64,000 bases of DNA from Halarcobacter sp. (lineage in GTDB: Bacteria > Campylobacterota > Campylobacteria > Campylobacterales > Arcobacteraceae). The stretch spans positions 2,790,001 to 2,854,000 of the forward strand of contig NZ_OY780939.1 in NCBI RefSeq assembly GCF_963675975.1, in the 5' to 3' direction. The number at the start of each line of letters is the position of its first letter. Within the stretch, counting starts at the first letter, position 1. Below are positions 4,607 through 43,458 of the stretch, piece by piece. Both the position numbers and the translations under genes were made by a program. The notes below the pieces were generated by a model, which saw only the letters and a program-made list of their open reading frames with translations, did not search any database and was not told where the DNA came from.

Positions 4607-5765
4607 TTATTTTATTAAAATCTATATAAAAAGTAGAACCTTCATCTACTTTAGATTGTAAAGAGAGCTTTAAACCATAATCATTACAAACTCTTTTTAC
4701 AATATCTAAACCAATACCAAAGCCACCTTCACTATTTATTCCCCTTTTATATCTTTTGAAAATCTCTTCTTGTTCCTCTTTTGAAATACCTATACCAAAA
4801 TCTTGTACTGAAAATATTCCATTTTTTAATTTTATACTTATAATTGAACCATTTTTACTATATTTAACGGCATTTGATATAAGATTGTTTATTAGTTTTT
4901 GTGTTTTTGTTTTATCCATTAATATTTCAAAATTTTCTAAATCAGTTTCTATTTTAATATTTTTAGTAATAGAGATATCATTAAAAAACTCTACACTTTC
5001 GTTTATTAGTGAATCTAAACTAATCTTTTCATCGATATTTTCTTGAAAGTCATTAAAAGCTGAAAAATGTATATCATTGTATATTTGAGAAATTTGTTTT
5101 GAACTACTTAAAATATATTTCATCATCTTTTCAGGATTTTTGCCTTTTTTCAACATTGAAACAGAAGTCATAAGAACTGAAACTGGTGTATTTAATTCAT
5201 GTGCTGAATCTTTGATAAAATTATCTAAATGGGTAACTTTATCTCTAACTGGTTTTAATAATATTCGTGCAAGAAAAATAGCAATTAAACCTACAAATAT
5301 TGAACTAAAAATAAAAGCTAATACGGTATAAATTCTAAGTTGATCTCTACTTTGAACACCTCTACAAGTCTCCATTACAATATATTTTATTGGTATTCCT
5401 ACTTCATCTATTTTTGATACGAAATAATGAAAATCACCATTTTCATAAAAATTATTTCTAAATTTTATAAAATCTTTTCCATCTAGATAAGAATATATTA
5501 CCTTTTTATCTTTATCAAAAAGTGCATATTTAATATCATCCTCTTTAAGTTTTTTTGGTACAAATTTTTTATTATGCATAAAAGAGTTTAATATATCTGT
5601 TTTAATATTCATAGAAGCATTATTTAGCTCCATACTGCATGTTTTTTGTAAAGATTCAATCTCATCTTGATAATATATATAAAGTAAAATTCCTATTAGT
5701 AATATAGCTGAACCCATATATATTGATAAAAAACTAATTAAAGCTTTTTTTTCATCATTATTCAA
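4593..5765 (-). CDS. Membrane sensor histidine kinase
   Basis: Class I sensor kinase of 390 residues. Membrane helix 1 is about residues 8-31, a periplasmic sensor of about 110 residues follows, and helix 2 is about 145-170. The dimerisation box DSAHELNTPVSV carries the phospho-acceptor H189. The ATPase domain has the N box (NNLISNAVKYS), G1 (DFGIGIS) and G2 (GFGIGL). The start appears to be TTG at 5765, overlapping the stop of the response regulator by 8 bases, so the two are translationally coupled. It autophosphorylates and hands phosphate to the regulator at 5758-6417. The stimulus is unknown; the periplasmic part shows no motif I recognise. Confidence 0.9.
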   Translation of the reverse strand: MNNDEKKALISFLSIYMGSAILLIGILLYIYYQDEIESLQKTCSMELNNASMNIKTDILNSFMHNKKFVPKKLKEDDIKYALFDKDKKVIYSYLDGKDFIKFRNNFYENGDFHYFVSKIDEVGIPIKYIVMETCRGVQSRDQLRIYTVLAFIFSSIFVGLIAIFLARILLKPVRDKVTHLDNFIKDSAHELNTPVSVLMTSVSMLKKGKNPEKMMKYILSSSKQISQIYNDIHFSAFNDFQENIDEKISLDSLINESVEFFNDISITKNIKIETDLENFEILMDKTKTQKLINNLISNAVKYSKNGSIISIKLKNGIFSVQDFGIGISKEEQEEIFKRYKRGINSEGGFGIGLDIVKRVCNDYGLKLSLQSKVDEGSTFYIDFNKIIISL

Positions 5766-6417
5766 ATTTATATCCTATGCCTCTTATTGTTTGAATACTA
5801 TCTTTTCCAAGTATTTCCCTAAGGTTTTTTATATATACTCTTATAGTTGCATCAGTTGGCATCTCTTCATAAACCCAAATATTTTGCAACAATTCTTCAC
5901 TTGAGATAACTCTACTTTTATGTTTTATAAAATATTTTAAAATATCTCTTTCTTTTTGAGCAATATTTTTTGTAATATTTCCAATTCTAATTTGACAAGT
6001 TTCAGGTAAAAAACTTGTTGTTTCATTTATGTTTACTTCATTTGATTGCTCAATATAAAACTGCTTACAAAGCTTCATAATTCGTTGGTCTAATTCTTCT
6101 AAATCAAAAGGCTTTTTTATATAATCATCTACACCATTTTCAAAAGATTCTTTTAAATGTTTTGTATCTTGATAAGCTGTTAAAATTATAATTGGTGTTC
6201 TATTCTTATAATCATCTCTTAATGTTTTTAAAACCTCAAGACCAGTCATAAGTGGAGTATTTATATCTAATAAAGCTAAATCATATATATTGTCTATTAG
6301 GTACTCTAAAGCTTCTTGACCATTTGTACAAAGGGTTACTTCATAACCTTTATCTTCAAGATGTTCATTTAATAAGTCATTTAAAGCTGGGTCATCTTCT
6401 AGTAATAAAACTTTCAA
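5758..6417 (-). CDS. OmpR/PhoB-family response regulator
   Basis: Response regulator of 219 residues. The receiver domain (1-120) has the acidic pocket LLEDD, phospho-acceptor D51 in ALLDIN, the switch Thr in ILTAY and the Lys in YIKKPF. The winged-helix DNA-binding domain (about 130-219) has the typical ERDILKYF and the C-terminal TIRGIGYKFE wing. It is the first gene of a two-gene unit with the kinase that overlaps it. It should activate or repress genes in response to that kinase; targets cannot be read from the window. Confidence 0.93.
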   Translation of the reverse strand: MKVLLLEDDPALNDLLNEHLEDKGYEVTLCTNGQEALEYLIDNIYDLALLDINTPLMTGLEVLKTLRDDYKNRTPIIILTAYQDTKHLKESFENGVDDYIKKPFDLEELDQRIMKLCKQFYIEQSNEVNINETTSFLPETCQIRIGNITKNIAQKERDILKYFIKHKSRVISSEELLQNIWVYEEMPTDATIRVYIKNLREILGKDSIQTIRGIGYKFE

Positions 6418-6479
6418 TATATAATCCTTTAATTAGAAAATTAAAATATTATACAAAAAGTTTGTTTATCAAGTGTGTA

Positions 6480-7079
6480 TTAATGTTTTAACACTTTTTT
6501 TATTATATTATAAAGAGTTTTTTCTGCTTCACTTAATGTTTTTCCAAAAGTAACCAATGAGAAATCGTTTCCATCAATAATAAATGAATTATTTAAAAAA
6601 GGGTCTACGTTTTCATATAATTCTTCTAATATATCTTTTTTATCTAAATTGTCATAATCAACTTTCAAAGATTCATTACTATACATTACATCCCAAATTT
6701 TTTCATTGTTTACAACAATAACAGCTTTTATTTGCATATTTAAATTATAAAGATAAGAGTGAATTAACCATTCACTTGAGGGTTTATTAGGTCCAACACA
6801 AAACATTTTTTGTTTATTAAACTCAACTTTTTTTATAAAAGAATAATAGTTTGCATTAAGTTTAGGAAACTCACCAGTATCTTTTCCTGTAATTACAAAT
6901 GAATTTTTATTTTTATTATATCTTATAGAAGCACTCCCAAAACTAGAGCAATTTGAATAAGAACCAATAAGCCCCAAACAAAAAAGTCTAGACCTAATTT
7001 TTTCAATCTTATTACACTCTTTTAGAGCAATCTCTTCTGTTTTTGTATATTTAATTGAATAATCATAGTCTTTCATCAT
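6480..7079 (-). CDS. Class II aldolase/adducin-like protein lacking metal-binding histidines
   Basis: Protein of 199 residues that fits the class II aldolase/adducin fold: SFGSASIRY in place of the GNxSxR loop, FVITGKDTGEFPKL in place of the LITPSG segment, then PSSEWLIHSYLY matching the SSE...H...Y helix. The next strand, which normally holds the zinc-binding HxH (VHTHSP), reads AVIVVNNEKIWDVM, so the usual metal site is absent. It is therefore probably not a standard aldolase or epimerase; a structural, ligand-binding or altered-activity role is possible. The start has AAGGA just upstream of tandem ATGs. It ends 62 bases from the regulator at 6417 in the same direction, so it is probably its own unit. 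The fold assignment is inference from motif order. Confidence 0.6.
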   Translation of the reverse strand: MMKDYDYSIKYTKTEEIALKECNKIEKIRSRLFCLGLIGSYSNCSSFGSASIRYNKNKNSFVITGKDTGEFPKLNANYYSFIKKVEFNKQKMFCVGPNKPSSEWLIHSYLYNLNMQIKAVIVVNNEKIWDVMYSNESLKVDYDNLDKKDILEELYENVDPFLNNSFIIDGNDFSLVTFGKTLSEAEKTLYNIIKKVLKH

Positions 7080-40132: not shown

Positions 40133-40786
40133 TTATTGTTGTCTACTAACTTTCTTCTCTAAATATTTTGAGAAAACTGCAATAGTATAAGTCATAACAA
40201 AATAAAAAACTCCAAGGGTTAAATATATCTCAAAAGGCTCATAAGTTCGCACATATATAAGTTGCCCTGCTCTTGTGAGTTCAGTAATTGATAAAACAGA
40301 AACTAAAGAACTGTCTTTTAGTATAGAAGCATAAGTGTTTGTAAGTGGTGGTAAAACTATTTTAAATGCTTGTGGGTAGATTATGTGTATAAACATCTGT
40401 ATTTTGCTAAGTCCAAGTGAATCTGCTGCTTCATATTGACCTTTTGGTATTGCTTGAATTCCAGCTCTTACTATCTCAGCCATATATGCGCCAAAATTTA
40501 AAGACAAACCTATAATAGCAGCTTGATGGCTTGACATAGTTATACCAATTTGTGGTAAACCATAATAGATAAAAAATAGTTGTATAAGTAAAGGTGTTCC
40601 TCTAAAAATCTCTATATATGAACTAATTAGAAGTTTGAAAAAATAGTTTATTTTCAAACTTCTTAGTGTACCTATTATTACACCAATAAATAGTGCAATA
40701 ACAAAAGATACAAAAGATAAATAAATAGTAAGCCATGAGGCTTCTAAAAGAAACCCCAAGTTATCAAATACAGCGTTAAAATTCAC
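40133..40786 (-). CDS. Polar amino acid-type ABC transporter permease (HisM/GlnP family)
   Basis: 217-residue inner-membrane permease with about five helices. Family marks are ASWLTIYLSFVSFVIAL, EIFRGTPLLIQLFFIYYGLP and the EAA loop YEAADSLGLSKIQMFIHIIYPQ. It directly follows the binding protein (ends adjoin). There is no ATPase gene in this operon, so an ATPase encoded elsewhere must be shared. Confidence 0.93.
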   Translation of the reverse strand: MNFNAVFDNLGFLLEASWLTIYLSFVSFVIALFIGVIIGTLRSLKINYFFKLLISSYIEIFRGTPLLIQLFFIYYGLPQIGITMSSHQAAIIGLSLNFGAYMAEIVRAGIQAIPKGQYEAADSLGLSKIQMFIHIIYPQAFKIVLPPLTNTYASILKDSSLVSVLSITELTRAGQLIYVRTYEPFEIYLTLGVFYFVMTYTIAVFSKYLEKKVSRQQ

Positions 40787-41515
40787 TTATTTTACTGCCA
40801 GCCATTTGTTGATTAGTTTGTCGTAAGTTCCGTTATCTTTTAAAGTTTTTAAAGCTTCGTTAACTTGTTTTGTTAACTCATCTTTCCCTTTTTTCATAAC
40901 AACAACTAACTCAGCAGGTGCTAGTTTATCAACGATTTTATACTCAGTATTAAAATCTTTTTGATTTAAAGCATATGCATAACCAACAACTACTGCATCA
41001 ATTCTTTCATGTTTTAAGTCTAAAAATGCTTCTGGATTATAGTTATATCTTGCAACTTTTCCAAGTCCTGATAGCTTATCAACAACTTGTTCACTTCCAC
41101 TTCCAAGTTGAACCCCAACAGTTTTTTCTGCTAAATCTTTTTGTGAAGCAATTTTATCATTATCTTTTTTTACAACTAAAACATCATTTAGTAAGTAGTA
41201 AGTATCTGATAGATTTACATTGTTTTCACCAGCTTCTTGTTTACTCATTGCACTAACTATCATATCGTAGTTATCGTTTTTAAGTCCACCTAATAATGCT
41301 TGCCATTCTGCATCTTTGATTTCAACTTTCTTACCAATGATTTTACCAATCTCATTTGCTAAATCAATATCAAAACCAACAATATTTCCACTCTTTTCAT
41401 CTCTTGACTCAAATGGTGGATATGCTGCACATAAACCAACTGTAATAACATCTTGTTGTGCATTTGCAAAAAGTCCAAATGTCAACAATAACCCTGCGAA
41501 AAATTTCTTCATCAA
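40787..41515 (-). CDS. Polar amino acid-type ABC substrate-binding protein
   Basis: 242 residues, SBP_bac_3 family. Sec signal about 1-19 (FFAGLLLTFGLFANAQ). Family segments are VGLCAAYPPFESRDE, GFDIDLANEIGKIIG, WQALLGGLKNDNYDMIVSAMS and the hinge VGVQLGSGSEQ. It would bind an amino acid or similar small zwitterion. Its ATG overlaps the stop of the upstream desulfidase gene (ATGA), so the three genes form one coupled unit; that suggests a sulfur- or thio-containing ligand. Confidence 0.93.
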   Translation of the reverse strand: MMKKFFAGLLLTFGLFANAQQDVITVGLCAAYPPFESRDEKSGNIVGFDIDLANEIGKIIGKKVEIKDAEWQALLGGLKNDNYDMIVSAMSKQEAGENNVNLSDTYYLLNDVLVVKKDNDKIASQKDLAEKTVGVQLGSGSEQVVDKLSGLGKVARYNYNPEAFLDLKHERIDAVVVGYAYALNQKDFNTEYKIVDKLAPAELVVVMKKGKDELTKQVNEALKTLKDNGTYDKLINKWLAVK

Positions 41516-42060
41516 ATCTCCTTTAATATGTTCTGCACCGATGCAGTTGGGTTTTGTTCATCTAAAGCATAAAAAGTTAAACTTACACCATTTTCTTCAA
41601 GCAACTCAAAAAGTACTTCCATATAAACTCCTGCTTCATCAACCGTTTTTAAAGAGTCAAGATTCTTTTCTAAATCAAATGATTTATCAATCTCCCCTTT
41701 CCATTGGGCTCGGCATGTTTTATTAATACCACAGTTTGGACTTCCATCAATACCTATGCAAGCATTAACTTCATATCCATTATTTTTATAATCAATCACT
41801 TGATTTACTATTGGAAGTAGCATTTTTTTGAATTGTTGTTTATATATTGGTGTTTCATATTGTTCTTTAACCATTCCCCATCTGTTAACTCCACAAGTTA
41901 ACATCTCTGGACAAGGTAATTGCAAAATTCCGTAACCTTTGTCACATAAAGGATTAATAAGTTCAGCCAAACACCCTTTATAGTTTGCTAAGGAATAAAC
42001 TTTTGCATTAGAATTAAGTATACAATGACTTAAAAGTATAATTTTTTTGCTTCGATTCAT
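41512..42060 (-). CDS. TudS-related putative desulfidase
   Basis: 182 residues, resembling the DUF523/TudS group and its CD3072-type branch. Three conserved cysteine positions that would hold a [4Fe-4S] cluster are seen as C13 (LSHCILN), C50 (LPCPEML) and C110 (GSPNCG). TudS removes sulfur from thiolated compounds such as 2-thiouracil using a labile iron on the cluster. Extra cysteines (C39, C56, C101, C116) are present. It leads the operon and overlaps the binding protein by ATGA. A joint role is likely: import a thiolated compound and strip its sulfur. The activity is inferred from family, not shown. Confidence 0.78.
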   Translation of the reverse strand: MNRSKKIILLSHCILNSNAKVYSLANYKGCLAELINPLCDKGYGILQLPCPEMLTCGVNRWGMVKEQYETPIYKQQFKKMLLPIVNQVIDYKNNGYEVNACIGIDGSPNCGINKTCRAQWKGEIDKSFDLEKNLDSLKTVDEAGVYMEVLFELLEENGVSLTFYALDEQNPTASVQNILKEI

Positions 42061-42120
42061 GAAAACCTCAAATAATAGTTTTCCTAAAAAGCAGTTGTTG
42101 ACAAGAAAAGCTTAATTGTC

Positions 42121-42137
42121 GTTCCAAACCTTGGAAC
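42121..42137. promoter_or_regulatory. Candidate operator upstream of the desulfidase operon
   Basis: GTTCCAA, three bases, TTGGAAC: a perfect 7-bp inverted repeat 61 bases before the desulfidase ATG. It is the most GC-rich short motif in an AT-rich leader and has no U tract. A second repeat, TAGAAT/ATTCTA with a 5-base gap, lies nearby around 42152-42168. It could be a repressor site. Confidence 0.45.
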
Positions 42138-42186
42138 TTGCTTAATTTTAGAATGTAAAATTCTAGTTATTTTCTTCTTAATTTCG

Positions 42187-42242: not shown

Positions 42243-42845
42243 TTATAGAAGTCCAAAAGTTTTCAATACAGTTCTGGTTCCACCTGATGCGATTGACTGT
42301 TCTGCCCTAAATGTTAAATCAGAGATATCTTTTAAAAGACCATCTAAAAGCTCATCATAATTAAACACAGGATAATCACTTTGAAGGGCAAGTTTATTAA
42401 AATCTGTATCCGTAATACCTTTTTTACTCCATTGTTTTAAAGAATTATGGGAAATAGAATATGCAAACTTTTCTAATCTATTATCACTCTCTTTTGCATC
42501 TATAACTACACCGTTAAACCCTTTTTGGTTAATAATATCAATAAAACTATCATCTAAACTAATTGAGTCTATTACTATTGGCATATTTTCTACTAAATCA
42601 AGTTCATCTACTTTTGATATTTTAAAAGCAATACAATTTTCATCTTTATTCTCTTTAAACTCAATTGGTAAAGTGTATTTAAATCTTTGAATATCAGAAC
42701 ACAACTCTAAAGTTTTTTCCAATTCATCTTTTGTTTTTGGATTTATAATAAAATACTCAACTCTAGTATCCTCTATTAACTCATCTAACTCTTCTAAAAA
42801 ATCCTCATCGATACCATTAAGTTTAATATTCATATCTAAAATCAT
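42243..42845 (-). CDS. Uncharacterised protein, 200 residues
   Basis: No confident family. The chain alternates strands and helices (VEYFIINPKTKDELEKTL, FKYTLPIEF, MPIVIDSISLDD, GFNGVVIDAKESDN) in a way that could fit a TIM-barrel such as the TatD-like group, but no metal-binding His/Asp set is visible. The C-terminus has SIASGGTRTVLKTFG. There is no signal peptide. It is divergent from the C_GCAxxG_C_C gene across about 170 bases. Confidence 0.65.
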   Translation of the reverse strand: MILDMNIKLNGIDEDFLEELDELIEDTRVEYFIINPKTKDELEKTLELCSDIQRFKYTLPIEFKENKDENCIAFKISKVDELDLVENMPIVIDSISLDDSFIDIINQKGFNGVVIDAKESDNRLEKFAYSISHNSLKQWSKKGITDTDFNKLALQSDYPVFNYDELLDGLLKDISDLTFRAEQSIASGGTRTVLKTFGLL

Positions 42846-43017: not shown

Positions 43018-43458
43018 ATGACTGAACAAAACAGTTTTATTAAAAACAAAGTAAAAGACTATTATTGGGAAGATGACATAAACTGTGCAACAACAATGAT
43101 TAAAACACTAGCAGAAATTTTCAATATAAAAATAGATTCTCAAGTAATTAATGCAGCAACAGCTATGCATGGTGCAGGAGAGTATGGAGCTCAATGCGGT
43201 TTAGTTGAAGGAACATTAATGTTTATTGGTATTTATGGAGATATGCAAAAGCTAGAAAAGACTGATGTTATTAAACTATGTAATAAATTTGCTAAAGAGT
43301 TTGAGACTAGATATACAAGTTTATTATGCAAAGAGCTAAGACCAGAAGGATTTAAAGAAGAGAACCCTCCTCATCTTTGTGAAGATTTTACTGTTGAAGC
43401 AATAAGATTTACAAAAGAATTTATCAATAGAGAGTTTAAAAAACAAATAATGTATTAA
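43018..43458 (+). CDS. C_GCAxxG_C_C family redox-type protein
   Basis: 146 residues. The family pattern is present with variation: NCATTMIKTLAE, then AMHGAGEYGAQCGLVEG, then a C-terminal LLCKEL and PPHLCED. Such small proteins are predicted to bind a metal or Fe-S cluster or act in redox transfer; no function is established. AAGGAC precedes the ATG. It lies 138 bases upstream of a peroxiredoxin in the same direction, which fits a redox theme. Confidence 0.75.
   Translation: MTEQNSFIKNKVKDYYWEDDINCATTMIKTLAEIFNIKIDSQVINAATAMHGAGEYGAQCGLVEGTLMFIGIYGDMQKLEKTDVIKLCNKFAKEFETRYTSLLCKELRPEGFKEENPPHLCEDFTVEAIRFTKEFINREFKKQIMY

Follow-up and report, generated by a model that had tools for sequence, protein, structure and literature searches.

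A CD3072-type putative desulfidase encoded with a PAAT-type importer and a candidate leader RNA in Halarcobacter and other Campylobacterota

What does a desulfidase gene do next to the genes of an importer that has no ATPase gene? The question is raised by three genes of a Halarcobacter sp. (family Arcobacteraceae, Campylobacterota) whose 3.27-Mb genome is a single contig; they lie in the stretch of 64,000 nucleotides that was analysed here, called the window below. Little work has been devoted to the bacterial uptake of thiolated bases and other C=S compounds like them, and most TudS relatives are without an assigned substrate. When a desulfidase is inherited together with an importer, its substrate can be approached via the binding protein, the enzyme or the leader RNA. 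An initial annotation of this DNA proposed that a small thio-compound, either a thio-amino acid or a thiolated base, is imported and then stripped of its sulfur.

On the minus strand of the window, a TudS-related gene is followed by the gene of a binding protein (SBP) and by a permease gene (Table 1). The first two genes overlap, as the initial annotation had stated, but not in the ATGA that it gave: the junction reads ...AAAGGAGATTTGATGAAG..., and the TGA stop and the likely ATG start have one base in common (TGATG). In the list of open reading frames the SBP gene begins with a TTG (40787-41515, 242 aa), which would make a 4-base TTGA overlap; the likely start is the ATG given in Table 1, which is preceded by a good Shine-Dalgarno sequence, AGGAG. 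Overlaps of four bases at this junction are found in several relatives. The SBP stop directly abuts the GTG start of the permease gene, so that these two genes adjoin as annotated. Neither an ATPase gene in or adjoining the operon nor a pyrimidine gene near the cassette was found in the window, and in a promoter and terminator scan promoters were no commoner than in shuffled sequences.

Table 1. Positions of the cassette genes, of the elements of the candidate leader and of one decayed cassette copy (window coordinates unless a locus is named)
Feature	Position	Strand	Remarks
CD3072-type TudS-related [4Fe-4S] desulfidase gene, putative, 182 aa	41512-42060	(-)	NF045597, 185.3 bits
Exported family-3 SBP gene, 241 aa from ATG 41512	40787-41512	(-)	PF00497, 127.8 bits; signal peptide by inspection
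PAAT-type ABC permease gene, 217 aa, one subunit type	40133-40786	(-)	PF00528, 83.7 bits; TIGR01726
Leader RNA candidate, 91 nt, ending with the tudS-like ATG	42058-42148	(-)	conserved, covarying hairpins
Leader P1	42143-42139/42093-42089	(-)	pairing in alignment
Leader P2 hairpin	42136-42122	(-)	compensatory changes
Leader invariant CGACA	from 42121	(-)	alignment
Leader P3	42120-42116/42104-42100	(-)	pairing in alignment
Leader P4	42083-42078/42066-42061	(-)	runs into Shine-Dalgarno GAGG 42069-42066
Decayed cassette copy of G006	L041 7841-8059 and next ~300 bases	(-)	desulfidase start joined to permease fragments

The first protein is a full member of the family of NF045597 (CD3072 family TudS-related putative desulfidase), whose curated cut-off is 130 bits; the match covers positions 1-147 of the 148 of the profile. 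With the general TudS model PF04463 it scores 18.3 bits, under the Pfam gathering threshold of 34.7, and it is therefore called TudS-related here rather than TudS. Five residues (C13, C50, E52, S107, and C110) are invariant across 32 homologs and map by motif to Cys10, Cys43, Glu45, Ser101, and Cys104 of TudS_A, which comprise the three [4Fe-4S] cysteines, the catalytic Glu45, and Ser101 (PMC10611767). Lys20 places a basic residue at the position of TudS Arg17, the proposed phosphate holder (PMC10611767). When the AlphaFold (AF2) model of the protein (pLDDT 91.5) was compared with VIA-align, the top four rows were all TudS (Z 10.4-10.5, 140-142 residues aligned, rmsd 3.4-3.5), with 6z96 as the best match (Z 10.5) and the next row after TudS at Z 7.3; Foldseek alone gave no significant match with this model. 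Profile comparison with the canonical TudS of the same genome was weak (11% probability); the relation to TudS rests on motifs and fold. The protein resembles the TudS thiouracil/4-thio-UMP desulfidases (DUF523, PF04463; 6Z92, 6Z96) in its predicted fold, its cluster cysteines, its catalytic Glu, its Ser101 equivalent, and its basic residue at the Arg17 position, and is taken to be a putatively active enzyme. It differs from them in its score, in the adjoining importer of its subgroup, and in two parts of the sequence. The position of TudS Ser103 is occupied by Asn109 (Ser, Thr, Ala, Cys, or Val in other homologs), and the PTPRPPAE stretch is swapped for the family-specific R60-W61-G-x-V-K-x-Q67 (RWGxVKxQ).

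We know of no CD3072-type protein with an activity or a ligand, and a literature search on CD3072 and CD3073 found no papers. The two names come from successive locus tags of C. difficile, a hint that the curators knew of a link to transport: NF045596 (CD3073) is a putative ECF S component. The partner in the window is a PAAT ABC importer, not an ECF system. The window genome also encodes a canonical TudS, whose gene (L001 1450-1953) abuts a TtcA-like PP-loop tRNA thiolation gene (1955-2776, by eye), and a RudS-like protein (gene in L002).

Is the association of the three genes maintained in relatives? The cut-off of NF045597 was passed by 8 of 120 sampled relatives, the window genome counted, and by 6 of 397 genomes across the phylum, and an independent search with an SBP profile found the SBP subfamily in exactly the same 6 of the 397. 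The initial annotation had proposed looking for the same gene order elsewhere. Ten further Campylobacterota genomes have the full gene, and all of them keep the order, with genes that overlap or lie almost without a gap; it also occurs in Bacillota. Within Campylobacterota, SBP and permease are 68-95% identical to those of the window, and the desulfidase goes down to 49%. The flanks of the cassette are mostly unrelated; the recQ side is common to the window and G002 only, and four Arcobacteraceae cassettes have another site in common. In G006 the cassette has decayed as a whole: behind an intact leader, 65 codons from the start of the desulfidase gene are joined to two permease fragments, with the SBP deleted. 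Co-occurrence and conservation rule out a chance gene order. A TauE/SafE family gene lies directly 3' of the cassette in four Arcobacteraceae (L037 9746-10462, with equivalents in L038, L039, L040, and L041). It was considered as a fourth cassette gene and rejected, as it remains in G006 after the loss of the cassette and is absent from the other sites.

A genome-wide scan with the desulfidase alignment yielded 36 loci. The arrangement of desulfidase, then the same SBP and permease, recurs in Clostridium sp. CS001, Syntrophomonadaceae, Pelotomaculum, Lutispora, Sedimentibacter, Sporotomaculum, Formimonas, and one Desulfobacteraceae MAG, and all strong matches to the SBP subfamily in sampled Clostridia are linked to the desulfidase. 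Across 22 loci the pairwise identities of desulfidase and SBP are correlated (r 0.84; none of 2000 permutations as high), and in this comparison the Campylobacterota copies cluster together. The cassette is mobile and has spread horizontally, in bacteria of at least three phyla (Campylobacterota, Bacillota, and Desulfobacterota). A second subgroup has a gene of about 365 codons between desulfidase and SBP (L084 5599-6696, L085 5574-6710, L091 920-2026). Its product, from the Sporotomaculum-type operon, has no match in Pfam, NCBIfam, or PDB sequences, and probably belongs to the same pathway.

Other CD3072 proteins accompany importers of different kinds. They are found beside the CD3073 ECF S component (L090, L105, L110; near it and divergent in L098), beside an ECF ATPase (L099), beside SsuA/NMT1-type ABC operons (L087, L097), and beside a PotA/Fbp-like ABC operon (L100). 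This pairing of one enzyme family with importers of unrelated SBP types is the strongest argument that the desulfidase acts on the imported compound, and we infer that transporter and enzyme share their substrate. A literature search for a pairing of TudS with importers found no paper describing it. Alternatively, the desulfidase could repair or regulate something else, such as tRNA thiolation, with the transporter supplying a precursor. RudS desulfidases do act on tRNA (PMC11417400), and some CD3072 proteins are encoded apart from any transporter (L102, L103, L106-L108, L111). However, the desulfidase of 182 aa has no evident RNA-binding domain, and the overlap of the genes, their joint loss, and the repeated pairing with unrelated importers all speak for a shared task, so that this role appears very improbable. 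At L111, a diverged CD3072-like desulfidase gene is situated within a molybdenum hydroxylase cluster, adjoining XdhC (4953-6548).

The SBP, a family-3 protein, gives the most direct view of what may be imported. Its AF2 model (pLDDT 89) has amino-acid binders as the nearest solved structures. Pocket sites were set by alignment to HisJ, GlnH, and PDB chains; in the numbering of the 242-aa reading frame the pocket includes C29, Y32, and W71, with G96 at the Arg site and G178 at the Asp site. The Arg that holds the alpha-carboxylate (HisJ R77) is replaced by Gly or Ala in the TudS-linked SBPs that cover the site (25 sequences), and in a second subgroup of them the site falls in a stretch without Arg. 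The Asp that holds the alpha-amino group (HisJ D161) has given way to Gly or Ser wherever a TudS-linked SBP covers the site. Among paralogs from relatives, Arg is kept in 22 of 22 and Asp in 20 of 22. Because this clamp is lost in the TudS-linked SBPs, an ordinary alpha-amino acid is an improbable ligand. Of the two ligands first proposed, the thio-amino acid is therefore not supported. A plain amino acid such as glutamine, which the initial annotation named as the ligand that would speak against its reading, is not what the pocket points to either, since as far as the sequence tells the SBP is without the residues by which such a ligand is bound. Nearly all TudS-linked SBPs have Cys at the side-chain position D11. 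Trp71 and Tyr32 are the conserved aromatic residues; Tyr, and sometimes Trp, is also seen there in paralogs. These two aromatic residues, together with the ECF and NMT1 neighborhoods of other family members, lead us to guess that the ligand is a planar thio-heterocycle.

Uptake of a thio- or sulfur-containing amino acid, such as a cysteine derivative, with the desulfidase acting on that amino acid would suit the fold of the SBP and its nearest structures. The permease points in the same direction, as its nearest curated model is that of a cystine permease, although its score is under the cut-off of that model. In G404, moreover, the cassette leader is immediately preceded by a MetNIQ-type operon (L077 4900-7363). 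This reading is nevertheless quite improbable in view of the replacement of both clamp residues, and the known chemistry of TudS is directed at C=S and not at C-SH thiols. A second alternative retains the same logic of import and desulfuration but assumes a non-heterocyclic ligand, resembling a thioamide, thiourea, or dithiocarbamate, for sulfur detoxification or as a sulfur source. Loss of the clamp suits any small neutral ligand, and the TauE/SafE gene 3' of the Arcobacteraceae cassettes would fit as well; but that gene outlasts the cassette in G006 and so looks like a resident of the site, and other CD3072 desulfidases accompany ECF and NMT1-type systems, which typically serve vitamins and heterocycles. 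We regard this second alternative as unlikely.

The PAAT importers HisJQMP, GlnHPQ, and TcyJLN are similar to the cassette in the fold of the binding protein and in the type of permease, and a GlnQ-like ATPase is also usual in cassettes outside Campylobacterota. In contrast to these importers, the cassette SBPs have lost the amino-acid clamp and the Campylobacterota cassettes have no ATPase gene. The permease scores 97.7 bits with TIGR01726 (HEQRo-type), above the cut-off of 42.2, and by our own reading of its sequence it retains an EAA-like ATPase-docking motif, EAADSLG. No ATPase gene was found in the 11 Campylobacterota cassettes, so what the initial annotation had noted for the window applies to them all. 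A GlnQ-type ATPase is the last gene in 9 of 10 loci outside this phylum with sequence past the permease, L092 being the exception. Because the operons of Bacillota and Desulfobacterota usually end with a PAAT ATPase, its absence is lineage-specific; and since the Campylobacterota copies group together, the gene was most likely lost, or never gained, in that lineage. The window genome has three full GlnQ-like ATPases, all within complete PAAT operons, and two PAAT pairs without an ATPase, namely this cassette and one near 1.61 Mb. An ATPase dedicated to the cassette but encoded elsewhere in the genome was sought and rejected: a query with the ATPase of the Clostridium cassette matches just GlnQ-type ATPases, which occur just as much in relatives that lack the cassette. 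The Campylobacterota cassette likely shares the ATPase of another PAAT importer. The other SBP-permease pair without an ATPase (L168; G000:C1:1605000-1616000, ~1609553-1611071) lies beside NifS-like and Suf-type iron-sulfur genes.

We consider it moderately probable that the cassette is a salvage module, which imports a small C=S compound other than an amino acid and then desulfurizes it, and which in Campylobacterota borrows its ATPase and is controlled by its leader. The ligand captured by the periplasmic SBP would be a small thiocarbonyl compound other than an ordinary alpha-amino acid; a planar thio-heterocycle, for instance a thiolated base or nucleoside of the pyrimidine-like kind, is the most likely. 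From the SBP this ligand would pass to a permease dimer, driven in Campylobacterota by the ATPase of another PAAT importer. Inside the cell, the open iron in the [4Fe-4S] cluster of the CD3072-type enzyme would bind the sulfur, and hydrolysis of the C=S bond by this enzyme would yield sulfide and the oxo compound. Points against salvage of this kind are the weak sequence similarity to TudS, the canonical TudS and RudS-like protein that the genome already encodes, the lack of a pyrimidine gene near the cassette, and the CD3072 members that have no importer as a neighbor. The loss of PTPRPPAE and the change of Ser103 to Asn also count against it; the substrate may be far from thiouracil, or the reaction may be another one. 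In Campylobacterota, a structured leader would control expression by hiding the Shine-Dalgarno sequence of the first gene.

The leader was recognized when the 90 bases that precede the start of the desulfidase gene were aligned for 12 genomes, and it lies in front of all 11 Campylobacterota cassettes and the decayed copy of G006. Its consensus is AAGCA - hairpin - CGACA ... UGUC - UGCUU, followed by a hairpin whose 3' arm enters the Shine-Dalgarno sequence. P2 was predicted by RNAalifold from a structure-free alignment; 5 of its 6 pairs show compensatory change, and no pair is broken. In P4, such change is seen at 4 of 6 pairs. In the whole proposed structure, 9 of 21 pairs change on both sides. 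The covariation score of 0.237 (shuffle mean 0.119) was reached by 0 of 500 shuffles, a count that is not a probability because the 12 sequences are related, and sliding the pairing partners drops it to 0.14 or less. P1 and P3, which pair in 83-88% of cells with no both-side changes, are less certain. Folded singly, the sequences of the window, G002, and G009 do better than their shuffles (z about -2.3 to -2.7), but most others do not. A covariance model built from Arcobacteraceae alone placed the leader at the expected position, as the best match in the locus, in three of four held-out genomes (E 1.6e-7, 0.013, and 0.23) and missed that of G107; a sequence-only model found it in G440 and part of it in G107.

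P2 could instead be a DNA operator for a dimeric regulator, as its inverted repeat is perfect, is as long as an operator would be and has a spacer of 3 bases. Its compensation (UUCCAA/UUGGAA to UCCCUU/AAGGGA or GCCCAA/UUGGGC), however, would be poorly tolerated by the operator of a single regulator, and the neighboring P1, P3, and P4 are kept, P4 with compensation too. The operator, which would concern the leader only, is rather unlikely. The pairing pattern makes the leader a candidate for a new regulatory RNA, perhaps a riboswitch, without an Rfam family: neither the window leader nor the loci of six relatives gave a match at gathering score. No leader-like sequence was found elsewhere in the window, and none in the Bacillota loci, where Rfam gave no riboswitch at the tudS-like start and just Moco, fluoride, and CRISPR elements elsewhere. 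Like translation-controlling riboswitches, the leader combines a multi-stem, aptamer-like domain with a downstream hairpin that covers the Shine-Dalgarno sequence; unlike the known ones, it matches no Rfam family. A bolder proposal is that it forms a new riboswitch class, which responds to the imported thio-compound, or to the oxo product made from it, and regulates at the level of translation an operon devoted to importing and desulfurizing that compound; the SBP would belong to a new family-3 subfamily for thiocarbonyl compounds. Taken as a whole, this is possible but doubtful. Such a class would sense a sulfur compound for which no sensor is known. To our knowledge, few riboswitches have been described in Campylobacterota.

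Two neighbors of the cassette in the window complete the picture of the locus. The 200-aa open reading frame upstream of it (42243-42845, minus strand) has no family match and is not seen beside other cassettes. Farther on, the plus strand carries a gene for a putative redox protein of the C_GCAxxG_C_C family (43018-43458), near peroxiredoxin and thioredoxin genes.
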